From assembly GCA_023251915.1 (NCBI GenBank), contig JAHEXW010000008.1, forward strand, positions 1 through 61,641: a DNA stretch of 61,641 nt, read 5' to 3'. Below the pieces are notes generated by a model. The model had not been told where the DNA came from, did not search any database, and saw nothing but the letters and a program-made list of their open reading frames with translations. The stretch is from Actinomycetes bacterium (GTDB lineage: Bacteria; Actinomycetota; JAHEXW01). The translations under genes were made by a program, and so were the position numbers. Positions 41,281 through 50,438 of the stretch are shown here, one piece after another (position 1 is the stretch's first letter; each line of letters begins with the position of its first letter).

Positions 41281-42610
41281 GGTCAAGCCCGAAAGCGACA
41301 ACGGCAACAATACCAACAACCTAAACGCTGATGTTATCGAAGCGGATGTCACCAGTCCGGCCGCTTCTTTGGTTAAACGCGGTTTTCAGCCCCGCGGCGT
41401 TTTCGCTTCTTTGGCCCACAAAAACTTCGTCTTCTTCCTGAGCGGCGCCGTCTTGTCGAATATCGGCACCTGGATCCAAATGGTGGCGCTCGGCTGGTTG
41501 GTCCTTGAGATGACCAAGTCCGCTTTCTATGTCGGCCTGGTCAACTTCGCCGGCAGCGTCCCGGTAACGGTGCTCGTGCTCTTCGCCGGCGTCGCGGCTG
41601 ATCGTCTCGACCGAAAGAAGCTGATAATCGGTACCCAGATAGTCATGCTGGTCCTGGCCTTGATTCTCGCGTACCTGACCCAGGTTAACGCGGTAAATAT
41701 CCCAATAATTATCGTACTTAACCTGGGCTTCGGCTTAATGACCGCAATCATGTTTCCGACCTGGCAAGCCTACCTGTCCGATATCGTGCCGAGAAAAGAC
41801 TTGATGAACGCCATTGCTTTGAACAGCGCCCAATTCCATATGGCGCGCCTGGTTGGCCCGGCGCTCGCCGGCTTGATTCTGGCGGCTTACGGCGCCGCGG
41901 CAAACTTCTACGTAAACGCTGTCAGTTTCCTATTCGTAATATTGGCGCTAGCCGCCGTCAAGACGGCGCCCCGAGAGAAGGCCCCAGAGTTCCGCGTTAT
42001 GGCTCACCTCAAGGAAGGTTTTGCCTACGTCAATGATAAGCCGGTGCTCAAGGTGCTGCTGATCTCGACCGGGTTGATCACCTTGTTCGGCATGCCTTAC
42101 GCAACGTTGATGCCTGTCCTGGCCAAGAACGTCTTGCATCTTGGCGCCAGCGGCTTCGGCTTCATGATGGCCTTCAATGGCATGGGGGCTTTGGTCGGAG
42201 CGCTTTTGGTAGGCGGGATGGCCAATACCGTTAAACGGGAAACACTGATCAGAGCGGGCGCCATTGCATTCGGTGCCGGCCTGGTCGCGCTGGGGTTCGT
42301 TCACACCGTCTGGCTGGCGGCGCCAGTCCTCGTCGTCTGCGGCGGGGCTTTCCTTGTCACCAGCTCGGCTATCAATACGTCACTTCAAGCCCTCACCCCA
42401 GGGCGTTTACGGGGCCGGATCATGAGTATGTACGTGCTGATGTTTATGGGCATCATGCCTTTCTCAGGTTTGATTTTCGGAGCTGTCGCGGAGTTCACGG
42501 GCGTTGACATCGCTATCGCCATCGGCGGCGCCATCACCGTCATCACCGGCTTGGTCTTAATCCTGCGGCGCTCGCTGATCGACCAGTCCGAATCAACCCT
42601 CGCCGCTTAG
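41279..42610 (+). CDS. MFS transporter (MFS_3/EntS-like)
   Basis: This 443-residue protein is a 12-helix major facilitator transporter of the MFS_3 group, which includes the enterobactin exporter EntS and drug efflux proteins. A cytosolic N-terminal tail of about 40 residues precedes helix 1 (FVFFLSGAVLSNIGTWIQMVALGW). The A-motif-like loop is GVAADRLDRKKL, and PTWQAYLSDIVPRKDLMNAIALN is also diagnostic. The substrate is unknown. The ATG at 41279 lacks a ribosome-binding site; a later start inside the long tail is possible. Its stop overlaps the convergent Nramp gene by TTAG. Confidence 0.85.
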   Translation: MVKPESDNGNNTNNLNADVIEADVTSPAASLVKRGFQPRGVFASLAHKNFVFFLSGAVLSNIGTWIQMVALGWLVLEMTKSAFYVGLVNFAGSVPVTVLVLFAGVAADRLDRKKLIIGTQIVMLVLALILAYLTQVNAVNIPIIIVLNLGFGLMTAIMFPTWQAYLSDIVPRKDLMNAIALNSAQFHMARLVGPALAGLILAAYGAAANFYVNAVSFLFVILALAAVKTAPREKAPEFRVMAHLKEGFAYVNDKPVLKVLLISTGLITLFGMPYATLMPVLAKNVLHLGASGFGFMMAFNGMGALVGALLVGGMANTVKRETLIRAGAIAFGAGLVALGFVHTVWLAAPVLVVCGGAFLVTSSAINTSLQALTPGRLRGRIMSMYVLMFMGIMPFSGLIFGAVAEFTGVDIAIAIGGAITVITGLVLILRRSLIDQSESTLAA

Positions 42611-43866
42611 CCGCCGGCCGGTGCTAGCAGCTGCCAGAACATGGCGACCGACAGGCCAACCATCGCGGCCACCGTCGCCCAGCCGATGATATTGGCCCAA
42701 ACTCCGTTGGTATGCCGGCCCATGATGGTCTTATTGTTGCTAGTCAAAATGAGGAATATCAGGAGAACCGGGGTCAGCACGCCCTGCAGAACCTGAGAGT
42801 AGAACAGCATCGCCATCGGCCTTATGCCCACCAGGCTAAGAAGCGCTCCTAGCGCCAGCGAGAGCCCGATTACCAGGTAGAACCCTCTCGCCTTCGAAAG
42901 TTTGTCACTCATATCCTCTTTCCATTTGAGCGTGTCCCGGACAACATACGCGGTTGTCAGCGCCAGAACCGGGACGGCGACAATGCCGGATCCGAGGATT
43001 CCGATACTAAACAAAACATAGCTGAGTTTACCGGCCAGAGGCCGCAGCGCCGTCGCGATGTCCGCAGCCGACCAGGTATTGACGTTGAGGCCGACGTGAC
43101 CGTATAGCACAATGCCGCCGGCCAAAATGATGAAATAGAAGACGACGGAGGCGAAAATCATGCCGAACCGCACACCCCAGGCTTCGTCTTTTAGGTCGTC
43201 AATTGTTTTGTTCTCCTCAATCTCCTCGTTCGTCTGCCAAAACAGCAGGTAAGCCGAGATGGTCGTGCCGAACAAAGCGACCGCGGCGCTCAAAAACGTC
43301 GCGTTCAGTTTGATAGACGGGATAACGGTCGCGCCCGCGATGGCTATCCAATCGGGTTTGGTCAGCAAGACGTTCACGATATAGACGAGCAGAATCGGGG
43401 AGATAATGAACAGAACGCGGGAGACAAGGGCGTAGCCCTCACGAATCAGAATAAGCAAGATGATTAGAGCTATCGGCACCAGCCACCAGAGAAAGTCTAT
43501 GCCGGTAAAGAGTTCAATGACCGCGGCCATGCCCGCCATGTCGGCGCCAAGCGTCGTGGTGTTACAAATGACGACCAGGATCATCGCCAGCCAGGCCCAA
43601 CCCCGGCCAAAATGGTCCTCGATAACCAAGTTCAGACCCTTCTTGGTGACAACGCCGACGCGAGCCGACATCTCTTCGACGACGATTAACATCGGAAGAG
43701 TCAAGAATATCAGCCATAACTGGCTAAAACGGGTCAGAGCACCGACTTGGATATAGGTAACAATTCCGGATGGATCGTCGTCCGCGGCGCCGGTAATGAC
43801 CCCATCCTTCGTCAGGACAAAATAGTCCCTTATGTGCCGCCGTTTCTTATGTTGATGTCTCGGCAC
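42607..43866 (-). CDS. Nramp-family divalent metal transporter
   Basis: This 419-residue protein belongs to the Nramp family of proton-coupled Mn2+/Fe2+ transporters. About 11 transmembrane helices are visible. Near the N-terminus, GVITGAADDDPSGIVTYIQVGA carries the DPSG-type metal-binding motif in helix 1. The helix 6 region reads LFGTTISAYLLFWQTNEE, in which the Met of the classical MPH motif is not present, so metal selectivity may differ. It is encoded next to rubrerythrin and an unknown membrane protein, and this could link it to iron or manganese homeostasis. The stop overlaps the convergent MFS gene. Confidence 0.85.
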   Translation of the reverse strand: MPRHQHKKRRHIRDYFVLTKDGVITGAADDDPSGIVTYIQVGALTRFSQLWLIFLTLPMLIVVEEMSARVGVVTKKGLNLVIEDHFGRGWAWLAMILVVICNTTTLGADMAGMAAVIELFTGIDFLWWLVPIALIILLILIREGYALVSRVLFIISPILLVYIVNVLLTKPDWIAIAGATVIPSIKLNATFLSAAVALFGTTISAYLLFWQTNEEIEENKTIDDLKDEAWGVRFGMIFASVVFYFIILAGGIVLYGHVGLNVNTWSAADIATALRPLAGKLSYVLFSIGILGSGIVAVPVLALTTAYVVRDTLKWKEDMSDKLSKARGFYLVIGLSLALGALLSLVGIRPMAMLFYSQVLQGVLTPVLLIFLILTSNNKTIMGRHTNGVWANIIGWATVAAMVGLSVAMFWQLLAPAGG

Positions 43867-44576: not shown

Positions 44577-45080
44577 CTACAGGATTTCCGAAAAAGCCGA
44601 CTTCGGCGCGCCGCAGACGGGACATTTCTCCGGCGCCGCGCCTGTGTGCACGTGCCCACAGTAGGAACAGACGTAATAGGTGACGTCTTCGGCGTTGCCC
44701 AGCGTTTCCATCATGTCTTTGTATAGAACGGCATGCTCTTCTTCGACTTTAGCGACATACTTTAGATACGCAGCGACGTTATCGTCACCGGCGGCCGCGG
44801 CGTCTGTCATAAAGGTCGGATACATCTCTGTGTACTCGTAAGTTTCGCCCTCGATGGCTGTTGTCAGGTTGGCAGTCGTCTCTCCGACGCCGCCGACAAA
44901 CCCCAGATGGCGGTGTGCGTGGATCGTTTCTGATTCGGCCGCCGCTCGGAATAACTTGGCCGCTTGATAATAGCCTTCCGCTTCGGCTTTTTTGGCGAAC
45001 GCCAAATATCTGCGGTTGGCTTGCGATTCGCCCGCAAACGCGTTCATTAGATCCTGTTCGGTTTTTGCTCCGATACTCAT
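44577..45080 (-). CDS. Rubrerythrin
   Basis: Rubrerythrin is a di-iron peroxidase that protects anaerobes from hydrogen peroxide. The 167-residue protein has the ferritin-like diiron ligands (FAGESQANRRY, ESETIHAHRH, AKVEEEHAVLY) and a C-terminal rubredoxin domain with CSYCGH and CPVCGAP binding one iron. This is the classical two-domain form. It precedes the seven-helix membrane protein by 7 nt and the Nramp gene beyond it, so iron supply and peroxide defence may be linked. Confidence 0.94.
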   Translation of the reverse strand: MSIGAKTEQDLMNAFAGESQANRRYLAFAKKAEAEGYYQAAKLFRAAAESETIHAHRHLGFVGGVGETTANLTTAIEGETYEYTEMYPTFMTDAAAAGDDNVAAYLKYVAKVEEEHAVLYKDMMETLGNAEDVTYYVCSYCGHVHTGAAPEKCPVCGAPKSAFSEIL

Positions 45081-45152: not shown

Positions 45153-45830
45153 CTACTCGGTAAAGAAGCCTTTGTTCAGGTCGCCGGAATTGCTATAACC
45201 ACGGCTTTCCCAATAGCCACGGAAGGATGTGTCGTCGCTCAGGGTAATGCTCTCGATCCATTTGATCCATTTGTAACCCCATTTCTCCTCCGCGACCAGC
45301 ATAAATGGGAATCCGCGTTCCGGCGGCAGATCGACTCCGTTCATTTTATAGGCCATCATGATCTTGTTGGCTTTGAAGTACTCGACCGGGAATGATGTTG
45401 AGTAACCGTCGTGGGCGCGCAGAATGACAACGCGGGCGCGGCTCTTCGGATCGGCTTGACGCAAAAGATCCTCAACCAACACACCTTCCCAGAGAATCGT
45501 CACGCTCCAACCCTCCACACAATCCAGTTTGACCACCTTGCTAACTGCCGTATGTTTCTTGACGATATTGTCATAGGTCAGTGACTGCGGTTTGTTGACC
45601 AGACCGTTAATTACCAGCCGGTATGTGTCTTTGGGGACGTCTTGCGGACCCTTGATGGAGTTTTCTTGAAAATCCGCGATCGACGACAGGTTCTTACCCT
45701 TGTATTGTCTAACCTCGACCGATTTTAGGCGCGTGATGTTGTCCGATGAGGTTCCCGCGGTGCAGCCGCATAAAGAAAAGACGGTTGCTCCGGCCGCGAG
45801 CAACCACAAACTGATTCGTAGACGAGACAC
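45153..45830 (-). CDS. Molybdopterin-dependent oxidoreductase (sulfite oxidase-like), lipoprotein
   Basis: This 225-residue protein carries the oxidoreductase molybdopterin-binding domain of the sulfite oxidase/YedY superfamily. It is a predicted lipoprotein: signal peptide then lipobox SLCGC with the lipidated Cys at residue 23. The Mo-ligating Cys is in VVKLDCVEGWSV, and RGFPFMLVAEEKWGYKWIKWIESI and GYWESRGYS are typical of the family. The start is GTG at 45830 with AAGGAGG upstream. The substrate and redox partner are unknown. No cytochrome or heme-binding partner is encoded nearby. Confidence 0.88.
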   Translation of the reverse strand: MSRLRISLWLLAAGATVFSLCGCTAGTSSDNITRLKSVEVRQYKGKNLSSIADFQENSIKGPQDVPKDTYRLVINGLVNKPQSLTYDNIVKKHTAVSKVVKLDCVEGWSVTILWEGVLVEDLLRQADPKSRARVVILRAHDGYSTSFPVEYFKANKIMMAYKMNGVDLPPERGFPFMLVAEEKWGYKWIKWIESITLSDDTSFRGYWESRGYSNSGDLNKGFFTE

Positions 45831-45942
45831 GCTTCCTCCTTCGCACTAGTCCCTCATATCACAAGCATACTCTAGTTTACGTTAGTTTAAGCCGATTATC
45901 ATGATAGACTAATAGTTAAAGAAAAGCGTGTTAGGAGTTGGA
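45831..45942. other. Divergent intergenic region with small repeats
   Basis: The gap between two divergently read lipoprotein genes holds a TAGTTTA direct repeat with 10-bp spacing (45873-45879 and 45883-45889) and a 10-bp palindrome TATCATGATA (45897-45906). Either could be an operator. I find no convincing -35/-10 pair. The TTAGGAG ribosome-binding site of the plus-strand gene is at 45931-45937. Confidence 0.45.
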
Positions 45943-46632
45943 ATGCGCCCTAAATCTTGGCTTCCGGTAGCTTCGGCCATATTGTTGATTTTGGCCGCCG
46001 GTTGCGCCATTGGATCAATAAATGCCGCGACCAAGCCGGCCGGGGCGCGTCATCCCTACATTAACTCCTTCTTCCCCAACAAACCGATGGCGCCGACCAT
46101 GTTTCATGCCGAAACAGACGACCGCCGCGTCGTGTTAACCTGGCAAATGCCCGCCTGGGAAGACCAATACCCCTTTGACATCTATCGCTGGACAAGCGGG
46201 TTGGCCCCGAAATTATTGGATTCCGTGCCGGCGGGGGTTCACTTCTACACTGACTATAGCGCCGCGCCCGGAACCAACTATTTTTATCTTGTGACCACGC
46301 GCAAAGACGATATCATCTCGAGCGATTGCACGGCGCAACTTGTGGGCGTGAGGTTGGAACCGAGTGACTCGACGAAACCGCCGATCTGGGCCAGAGGCGG
46401 CATAACCCCGCCTCGCTATCCAAGCGATCCGGCTGCCTACGTCAATTGGGCGAGCGAGCAGGCGGCGAAGATTAGGGAGCAACTGCCGTATACATTTGTT
46501 GAGGAAATCTGCCCGGCCTGCGGCGGCAGCGGTATCATCACGCTGCCATCATCGACAAACGGCCTGCCGGACTTGACGTATTGCATGGCTTGTTTCGGCA
46601 GCGGTCATATAGTGACTGTCGTCCGGAAGTAG
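45943..46632 (+). CDS. Lipoprotein with two DnaJ-type CxxCxGxG motifs
   Basis: I do not recognise the whole protein. The 229-residue product starts at the ATG at 45943, with TTAGGAG 5 nt upstream. A signal peptide ends in lipobox LAAGC, with Cys21 the lipidated residue. A region of about residues 50-130 looks like a fibronectin-type domain (RVVLTWQMPAWEDQYPFDIYRW, TNYFYLVTTRKDD). Near the C-terminus are two DnaJ-like zinc-knuckle repeats: CPACGGSG and CMACFGSG, about 23 residues apart. In DnaJ such motifs bind zinc in the cytosol; here they would sit outside the membrane. The neighbour is a molybdopterin lipoprotein on the other strand. Confidence 0.75.
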   Translation: MRPKSWLPVASAILLILAAGCAIGSINAATKPAGARHPYINSFFPNKPMAPTMFHAETDDRRVVLTWQMPAWEDQYPFDIYRWTSGLAPKLLDSVPAGVHFYTDYSAAPGTNYFYLVTTRKDDIISSDCTAQLVGVRLEPSDSTKPPIWARGGITPPRYPSDPAAYVNWASEQAAKIREQLPYTFVEEICPACGGSGIITLPSSTNGLPDLTYCMACFGSGHIVTVVRK

Positions 46633-47552: not shown

Positions 47553-47597
47553 AAAAATAAAACCCCCTGATGAATAGTCATTCCTGTCAACCCACTG

Positions 47598-47623
47598 CAT
47601 TACTTCAATTAAGTGAAGTAATG
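47598..47623 (-). promoter_or_regulatory. Perfect inverted repeat in the hisG leader
   Basis: CATTACTTCA (47598-47607) and TGAAGTAATG (47614-47623) are perfect 10-bp arms around a 6-nt centre. It lies about 46 nt upstream of the hisG ATG and within the predicted 5' leader. It could be a protein-binding site or an RNA hairpin. No T-run follows, so a simple terminator is not supported. Confidence 0.6.
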
Positions 47624-47655
47624 GTATTTTGGCAAGTCAGCAATTTGATTAGGTA

Positions 47656-47664
47656 ATTGTAGCA
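47656..47664 (-). promoter_or_regulatory. Extended -10 promoter upstream of hisG
   Basis: On the minus strand TGCTACAAT combines a TGn extension with TACAAT (five of six). The predicted start near 47649 gives a leader of about 97 nt that contains the inverted repeat at 47598-47623. No good -35 is visible, as is usual for extended -10 promoters. Confidence 0.5.
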
Positions 47665-47687
47665 TATGCGAGAATATCGCTTCGAGA

Positions 47688-50438
47688 CTACTTCAACACG
47701 TCTTTGAGGAATTGGCCGGTGTAAGAGCCTTTGGTCGCGGCGACAGTCTCCGGGGTTCCGGCCACGACCAGTCGGCCGCCGCCAGCGCCGCCTTCGGGGC
47801 CGAGGTCGATGAGCCAGTCGGCGACCTTGATGACGTCCAGGTTGTGCTCAATAACGATTATCGTGTTGCCCTGGTCGACCAGGCGATTAAGGACTTCCAG
47901 CAGTTTGGCGATATCGGCAAAATGCAGCCCGGTCGTCGGTTCGTCCAGGATATAAAGAGTGCGGCCGGTGGCGCGTTTGGCCAGTTCGGCTGAGAGCTTT
48001 ACCCTTTGCGCTTCCCCACCCGACAGGGTCGGCGCCGGCTGGCCTAGCTTAACGTACCCCAGGCCGACATCGAAGATTGTCTCCAGCTTTCGTTTAATAA
48101 CCGGAATCTTATCAAAGAAAGCCAGGCCCTCCTCGATGCTCATGTCCAGAACCTGGGCGATATTCTTACCCTTGAATTTGATGTCAAGGGTTTCGGTATT
48201 GTACCTGGTGCCCTTGCAGACTTCGCAGGTTACATAGACATCCGGCAGGAAATGCATCTCGATCTTAATTTGGCCGTCGCCGTGGCAATTCTCACACCGG
48301 CCGCCGGCTACGTTGAAGCTGAAGCGGCCCGGCTTGTAGCCGCGCAGTTTCGCCTCGGGCGTCATGGAGTAGACCTTTCTGATCTCGTCAAACGCTTTAA
48401 TGTACGTTGACGGATTGCTGCGCGGGGTCCGGCCTATCGGAGACTGATCGATCTCAATGGCCTTGTCAATGTGCTCCAATCCCAAGATCGCCTCGTGCGC
48501 TCCGGGAATCACCCGGCTCTTGTAGAGTTTCCTAGAAACGGACTTCCAGAGAATGTCATCGACGAGCGTGCTCTTGCCCGACCCGGAGACTCCAGTGACG
48601 CAGGTCAGCACGCCCAAAGGAAACTCGATGTCCATGCCGGCAAGATTGTGCTCACGCGGGCCCTTGACCACTATGGCCGCGCCGTTGGACTGCCGCCGCT
48701 CGGCCGGTACGGCAATCGTCCGTTCGCCGCGTAGGTACTTGCCTGTCAGCGAGTCCTTGGACGCCATGATATCCGCGACAGTGCCCTGGGCGACGATCTG
48801 GCCGCCGTGTTCTCCCGCGGCTGGTCCGATATCAACGATGTGGTCCGCGGCTAAGATAGTCGCCTCGTCATGCTCGACAACGACTAGCGTATTGCCGATA
48901 TCGCGCAGGTGTTTCAGGGTCACGATCAGCCGCTCATTGTCACGCTGATGCAACCCGATACTAGGTTCGTCCAAAACGTACAGCACGCCGACCAGTCCGG
49001 AGCCGATCTGCGTCGCCAAACGGATTCTCTGCGCCTCGCCGCCCGCCAGCGTCGCCGCCGCCCGGTTGACCGTCAGGTAATCCAAACCGACGTCTACCAG
49101 AAACTTTACCCGGCGCTTTATTTCTTTCAATAGCCGTTCAGCAATCTGCGCTTCCCGGTCGTTTAGTTGAAGATTGTCAAAGAACGACATCAGATCGCGA
49201 GCGGATAGCTCGCCCATCTGATAGATATTGATCCCGCCCACGGTCACGGCCAATATTTCTTGTTTTAGACGGGCGCCTTGGCAAGTCGGACAGGGAACCA
49301 GGCTCATGTATTCTTCCAGCTTATCCCGGGCATAATCGGAATCTGTTTCCTTGTAGCGCCGGGTAATGTTGTTCAGCACGCCTTCGAATTTCGCGTGGTG
49401 CGCGTGGGTATAACCACTGACGCTGCGGAACCTGACGTAAACCCGTGTCTCGCCTGTCCCGTTAAGAATGACGTCCTTCTGCGCGTCTGTCAGATCGTGC
49501 CAAGGCATGTCGATGTCGATGCCGTATTCCTCGGCGACCGCCCGGATCATCTGCGGATAAAAGTTGACGGACGGCCCGGAAAAAGGCGCGACGGCGCCTT
49601 CCGCCAAGGACCGGCTGGGTTCGGGAATTATAAGGTCAAGATCGGGTTGAACGCGGGACCCCAGACCGTCGCAGGCAGGGCAGGCGCCATACGGCGTGTT
49701 GAACGAAAAGGCCCGCGGCGACAGTTCACCGAAGCTGAAGCCGTCGTTTAGACAGGCATAGTGGGTCGAGTAGGACTCGCGCTCTCCCCCGGCTTCAACG
49801 GCGATAATCCCGTCGGCTAGCTTTAACGCCGTCTCTACGGAATCAGCCAGCCGCCTCTTGACGCCTTCTTTAATGACCACGCGGTCAACGACGACGTCGA
49901 TATTGTGCCGCAGCTTTTTATCCAGCGCGATCTTTTCGTCGAGACCGTAGACCTGACCGTCGATCTGCACCCGGGCATAGCCCTCCTGGCGCAAGCGATC
50001 GATCAGCTCGCGGTATTCGCCTTTCCTGTCCCGCACAACTGGCGCCAGAATGGCCAGTTTCGTGCCAGTGGCACGACCGGCGATCTGCTCGATAATCTGA
50101 GTGGCGCTTTGCTGGGTTATGGCGGCGCCGCACACGGGACAATGGGGGGTGCCGACTCTGGCGTATAATACGCGCAAATAATCGTAGATTTCGGTTATGG
50201 TGCCGACCGTTGAGCGAGGATTCTTAGTCGTACCCTTCTGGTCAATGCAAACCGCCGGGCTCAAACCTTCAATAGAATCGACGTCGGGCTTGTTCATCTG
50301 CCCAAGGAACTGGCGGGCATACGCCGACAGCGATTCCACATAGCGGCGTTCACCTTCGGCGTAGAGAGTATCGATGGCCAGCGAAGACTTGCCGGATCCG
50401 CTCATCCCGGTCATCACGATCAACTTGTTGCGCGGCAA
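47688..50438 (-). CDS. uvrA: UvrABC excinuclease ATPase subunit A
   Basis: UvrA recognises DNA damage and loads UvrB. The 916 residues from the TTG at 50438 contain Walker [10 protein letters not shown] and a second ATP site [10 protein letters not shown], zinc motifs CPVCG and [21 protein letters not shown] (the C-terminal CxxC set), and both [16 protein letters not shown] signature motifs. Homologous sequence begins earlier: in the same frame codons for [18 protein letters not shown] lie directly upstream (50439-50494), but no ATG, GTG or TTG occurs there. The true start is therefore uncertain (see the uvrB-uvrA junction). The C-terminus is complete. It follows uvrB, whose stop overlaps the extension. 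Confidence 0.93.

Follow-up and report, generated by a model that had tools for sequence, protein, structure and literature searches.

The type I DnaJ proteins carry four CxxCxGxG motifs that form two zinc sites, and motifs 2 and 3 jointly bind one zinc. Anti-TRAP is another, small DnaJ-like knuckle protein. In plants, DnaJ-type fingers also stand alone at the C-terminus of proteins without a J domain, such as PSA2, LQY1 and BSD2/ZnJ2, and this family is described as having a C-terminal fourfold CxxCx(G)x(G) repeat (PMC4806229). PSA2, whose DnaJ-like zinc finger comes without a J domain, is located in the thylakoid lumen (PMC4806229); the premise that domains of this type are confined to the cytosol is therefore too strong. 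ZnJ2 has four CxxCxGxG motifs and no J domain, and it binds zinc (PMC5818400). It holds unfolded protein in a thiol-independent manner and is not an oxidoreductase, while reductase activity is reported for the DnaJ cysteine-rich domain and isomerase activity for LQY1 (PMC5818400).

Here, we describe an actinobacterial gene for a predicted lipoprotein that ends in two CxxCxGxG motifs (hereafter, the knuckle lipoprotein). It lies in a window of 61,641 nucleotides, that is, the whole stretch of DNA that was analysed. The features discussed below are the following:

45943..46632, + strand: knuckle lipoprotein gene (open reading frame listing; dN/dS 0.085 against the genus homologue)
45943..46005, + strand: predicted signal peptide and lipobox, residues 1-21, LAAG followed by Cys21 (regular expression and hydropathy in both homologues; LspA in the genome)
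46081..46362, + strand: fibronectin type III (FN3)-like segment, residues 47-140 (local matches elsewhere, three of five of which match Pfam fn3)
46420..46506, + strand: predicted helical linker leading to the knuckle, residues 160-188 (AlphaFold2 of residues 160-229)
46510..46605, + strand: CxxCxGxG pair, residues 190-221, one presumed Zn(Cys4) site (motif census; DnaJ motif 2-3 profile)
from 46510, + strand: CPACGGSG, residues 190-197 (exact CxxCxGxG)
from 46582, + strand: CMACFGSG, residues 214-221 (exact CxxCxGxG)
45860..45910, no strand: putative control region between the divergent genes (50 of 51 bases shared with the genus homologue; contains a direct repeat and a palindrome)
45153..45830, - strand: divergent lipoprotein with a molybdopterin oxidoreductase domain (PF00174, E 2.2e-33; MsrP below cut-off; lipobox)
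44577-45080, - strand: rubrerythrin, adjoining the molybdopterin lipoprotein gene
42607-43866, - strand: Nramp-type transporter, near the molybdopterin lipoprotein gene

The open reading frame at 45943-46632 (+) starts with ATG at 45943 and encodes 229 residues; an in-frame GTG at 45928 would add five. A lipoprotein signal, an FN3-like region and a C-terminal CxxCxGxG pair are all present, as first annotated, and the protein has six cysteines in total (residues 21, 129, 190, 193, 214 and 217). The N-terminus reads M-R-P-K and continues through a hydrophobic core to LAAGC, ending at Cys21; the most hydrophobic 12-mer of the protein lies in this region. Lipobox calls here and in the neighbouring lipoprotein were made with a lipoprotein regular expression. 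This pattern and hydropathy agree on a signal peptide with a lipobox cysteine, as originally claimed, and the homologue from the same genus retains both. The genome also encodes the signal peptidase II LspA (PF01252, E 6e-40). On these features, the knuckle lipoprotein would be lipidated and tethered at the cell surface.

For the FN3-like region, the evidence is indirect. The Pfam fn3 model (PF00041) gave no direct match to the protein. Parts of residues 25-151, however, match segments in five other genomes when 60 relatives are searched (E 3.4e-6 to 9.2e-4), and three of these five segments fit Pfam fn3, two of them above its cut-off.

Both C-terminal motifs are exact, and in 200,000 shuffles of residues 31-229 no trial contained two of them (86 contained at least one). 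Their starts are 24 residues apart. In 15 DnaJs, motif starts are spaced by 17 residues for motifs 1-2, 22 or 26 for motifs 2-3 and 14 for motifs 3-4; the spacing found here resembles that of the inner pair, which suggests that the module is one Cys4 site, or half of the DnaJ zinc domain. Because DnaJ motifs 2 and 3 bind one zinc, the pair is most naturally taken as one Zn(Cys4) hairpin. Two DnaJ-type motifs had been annotated as two zinc knuckles, and while the motifs stand, the separate knuckles give way to one presumed zinc site, half of the four-motif domain.

Profile searches are consistent with half a domain. The model PF00684 (DnaJ_CXXCXGXG) scores residues 188-225 at 16.2 bits (E 0.013) and the genus homologue at 14.7 bits, with a curated cut-off of 32.7 bits, and the gene is absent from the matches of a six-frame genome search with this model at E ≤ 1. 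Both the low score and the six-frame miss are expected when only half of the domain is present. A profile of DnaJ motifs 2-3 recognized the protein at 23.8 bits, compared to a maximum of 10.1 for 2000 shuffled tails, although 14 of its 15 DnaJ segments had been fetched with the knuckle as query and the profile is biased towards it. The profile search suggested by the first-pass annotation therefore falls below the PF00684 cut-off but recovers the motif 2-3 half well above shuffled sequence.

Compared to DnaJ itself, whose motifs 2-3 it resembles, the knuckle lipoprotein has two of the four motifs, scores under the Pfam cut-off, lacks a J domain (no Pfam match at E ≤ 10) and is predicted to be exported as a lipoprotein. 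The plant proteins share the stand-alone C-terminal finger, yet as excerpted they have four motifs where two are found here, and the lipobox and FN3-like domain set our protein apart; the likeness is one of description. Anti-TRAP, described as a regulator binding TRAP, matches weakly (14.7 bits for PF15777 and 14.6 bits for NF058604), far from the respective cut-offs of 32 (Pfam) and 65 (NCBIfam). In a census of stop-free frames of at least 60 codons across the window, CxxCxGxG occurs outside the lipoprotein only in the uvrA frame (2 motifs). UvrA (47688-50438, -) bears these at 48296 and 49682 and scores 22.2 bits against PF00684, more than the knuckle lipoprotein, so single motifs are not DnaJ-specific.

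Structure prediction was less informative. AlphaFold2 with a two-sequence input gave, for residues 160-229, helices at 163-180 and 183-192 and three strands (mean pLDDT 67), and a Foldseek search of the PDB with this 70-residue C-terminal model returned nothing significant (best E 0.99). The model of the whole protein, from the same input, was poor (pLDDT 33). The AlphaFold2 models are too poor to back any claim.

The sole full-length relative found belongs to the same genus (L008/G001) and is 87% identical. It retains the lipobox, all six cysteines and the gene order; signal peptide and cysteines were the two features on which the first-pass annotation had made an exported knuckle depend, and that reading therefore withstands the check. 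Between the two genes dS is 0.91 and dN/dS 0.085. Segment by segment, dN amounts to 0.237 (residues 1-30), 0.195 (residues 31-46), 0.045 (FN3-like segment), 0.068 (residues 141-180) and 0.032 (residues 181-229). As estimated from this one sequence pair, purifying selection acts on the gene and is strongest at the knuckle.

Searches at several depths place the family in one genus. Full-length matches occur in 2 of 60 relatives (own genome counted), with five others matching in the FN3-like part only, and a two-row profile run on 396 genomes of the phylum gave 2 full-length matches and three more in the FN3-like part only. A scan of genome contigs with exact peptide patterns, which reach close relatives only, found one locus, taken as the genus homologue. 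Plasmids gave no full-length match (two records matched in the FN3-like part only, at E 0.1, and the knuckle alone had one hit at E 4), phages gave no match, and PDB sequences gave four hits at E ≤ 10, the best of them at E 0.21. With the knuckle alone as query, matches at E ≤ 0.1 were obtained in 110 of the 396 genomes. Thirty of these loci were read: two are this gene, 14 are DnaJ, three are frames of 57-58 residues, one is a 132-residue frame and ten lack CxxCxGxG; no second exported knuckle protein was seen among them. Within the collections searched, which for the profile are sampled genomes of one phylum, the family is limited to one genus. In the paper library searched, no title dealt with a bacterial lipoprotein carrying CxxCxGxG, and no paper brought fibronectin type III and DnaJ together with a zinc finger and a lipoprotein in Actinobacteria.

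Some of the loci read deserve a separate description. The 132-residue frame (L012, in G243) has a CxxCxGxG pair at its end and no obvious signal peptide, and is possibly a cytosolic stand-alone knuckle protein. The frames of 57-58 residues (L021, L029 and L034, from three genomes of one genus) have two CxxC knuckles, one an exact CxxCxGxG, and no signal peptide was seen in them; they look like small single-zinc proteins.

The divergent neighbour had been annotated as a molybdopterin oxidoreductase lipoprotein, and both parts of this description are borne out by a domain match (PF00174 Oxidored_molyb, E 2.2e-33) and a lipobox (by regular expression). Its best NCBIfam equivalog is MsrP, at 74.6 bits with a cut-off of 207; a score so far below the cut-off assigns the protein to the wider fold family. 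Beyond it lie genes for rubrerythrin, a membrane protein (sub-cut-off Pfam matches only), the Nramp-type transporter and an MFS protein, and hisG and uvrA lie on the other flank of the knuckle gene. The genus homologue shares this gene order from the MFS gene through uvrB. The rubrerythrin and Nramp genes, kept beside the molybdopterin lipoprotein gene in both, possibly mark an oxidative-stress or metal neighbourhood.

Between the two divergent genes, positions 45860-45910 share 50 of 51 bases with the genus homologue, compared to 46-55% identity at fourfold sites in seven genes of the locus. This stretch contains the direct repeat TAGTTTA-N3-TAGTTTA and the palindrome TATCATGATA, and a genome-wide search for TAGTTTANNNTAGTTT, allowing one mismatch at most, finds it at this site alone. 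The divergent spacer shows no match to a sigma-70 consensus promoter. The conservation suggests a control region, perhaps a shared one, since a common operator-promoter would have such an appearance, and fits co-regulation of the knuckle lipoprotein with the molybdopterin lipoprotein. The hisG/uvrA spacer also holds conserved blocks, however, and the divergent region may thus serve one gene only. In that spacer (47553-47687) there is a central inverted-repeat-like stretch, CATTACTTCAATTAAGTGAAGTAATG, whose arms appear to change together in the genus pair.

The pairing of the two genes does not hold in G002, the one further genome of this order that was compared. There the molybdopterin protein is 59% identical (the match runs through one stop codon), and its gene adjoins a SufBD-type gene and lies near a multihaem cytochrome. 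No knuckle gene was found in the 15 kb read around it. In the whole of G002, there was no knuckle match at E ≤ 0.1 and no whole-protein match at E ≤ 1e-4; the lone match at E ≤ 0.001 is a short FN3-like segment of another protein. Among the 60 relatives, 42 match the molybdopterin protein and 2 the full-length knuckle protein. Co-occurrence of the two lipoproteins, a check proposed earlier, is therefore seen in the genus pair, whereas G002 has the molybdopterin protein alone.

From an architecture, a conservation and a conserved control region that are computed, we infer zinc binding, membrane attachment, client binding, co-expression and a link to the molybdenum enzyme in the following way. 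The product would be a genus-specific lipoprotein anchored at the outer face of the cytoplasmic membrane. Its FN3-like domain would act as a spacer or docking domain, and a short helical linker would join it to one Zn(Cys4) hairpin like that of DnaJ motifs 2 and 3. This hairpin would most likely bind a protein partner or an unfolded client, in the style of a holdase or assembly factor, rather than act as an enzyme. The gene would be expressed along with that of the divergent molybdopterin lipoprotein, and its product might aid the maturation or protection of that enzyme. We tentatively favour this reading, in which a tethered Zn(Cys4) module binds protein and is co-regulated with the molybdopterin lipoprotein. 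ZnJ2, with its zinc binding and thiol-independent holding of unfolded protein, offers an analogy (PMC5818400). The 92.6% complete genome has no match to VKOR (PF07884) at E ≤ 0.01 or to Thioredoxin_4 (PF13462) at E ≤ 0.001. Oxidative folding systems of these two kinds, which would oxidise the cysteines, are thus not in evidence, and a reduced, metal-bound Cys4 outside the cell is plausible.

It is possible, if on the unlikely side, that the Zn(Cys4) hairpin only stabilises the C-terminus and that function (ligand or cell-wall binding) resides in the FN3-like part. Small zinc knuckles are often structural, and the FN3-like segment and the knuckle differ little in conservation, with 92.6% versus 93.9% identity to the genus homologue and dN of 0.045 versus 0.032. 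Two points tell against this reading: the knuckle sits at the extreme C-terminus, past a linker, like a module of its own, and it retains the glycines of the DnaJ motif.

A thiol-disulfide role, with the CxxC pairs forming an exported reductase or isomerase, or a redox switch with the molybdopterin lipoprotein, is unlikely. It would suit a partner with an MsrP/sulfite-oxidase type domain and adjoining rubrerythrin and Nramp genes, and the reductase and isomerase activities reported for the DnaJ cysteine-rich domain and LQY1 offer a precedent (PMC5818400). Yet ZnJ2, with the same motif, was no oxidoreductase (PMC5818400), the gene pairing is not kept in G002, and the genome searches gave no VKOR or Thioredoxin_4 match that could serve as a redox partner. 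The suggestion of an exported zinc knuckle with a shared redox role is therefore divided: sequence supports the exported knuckle and co-regulation fits, but the specific redox role lacks direct support.

An iron or other metal site of rubredoxin-like type, serving as an electron carrier for neighbouring enzymes, is very unlikely. Four cysteines in CxxC knuckles, a glycine after the first and an adjacent rubrerythrin would agree with it, but no rubredoxin-type model matches the knuckle lipoprotein, a phenylalanine follows the last cysteine of the second knuckle and the GxG pattern is that of DnaJ. It is hardly credible that the motifs arose by chance in a lineage-specific protein, since, despite the sub-cut-off Pfam score and the single homologue, no shuffle yielded both motifs, the knuckle has the lowest dN of all segments and every cysteine is retained with dS near 1.

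The protein-binding reading can be carried further, though we consider this extension decidedly improbable: the knuckle lipoprotein might be a minimal, exported module that descends from the DnaJ zinc domain or is analogous to it. Tethered to the membrane and needing neither DnaK nor ATP, it would serve an envelope molybdoenzyme as holdase or assembly factor, in an actinobacterium with a small genome. General interest is modest, because this is a lineage-specific variant of known modules with one homologue. Should it bind zinc outside the cell, the knuckle would give bacteria a counterpart to the DnaJ-like zinc-finger proteins of the chloroplast lumen, and would show that one half of the DnaJ zinc domain can exist by itself at a cell surface.
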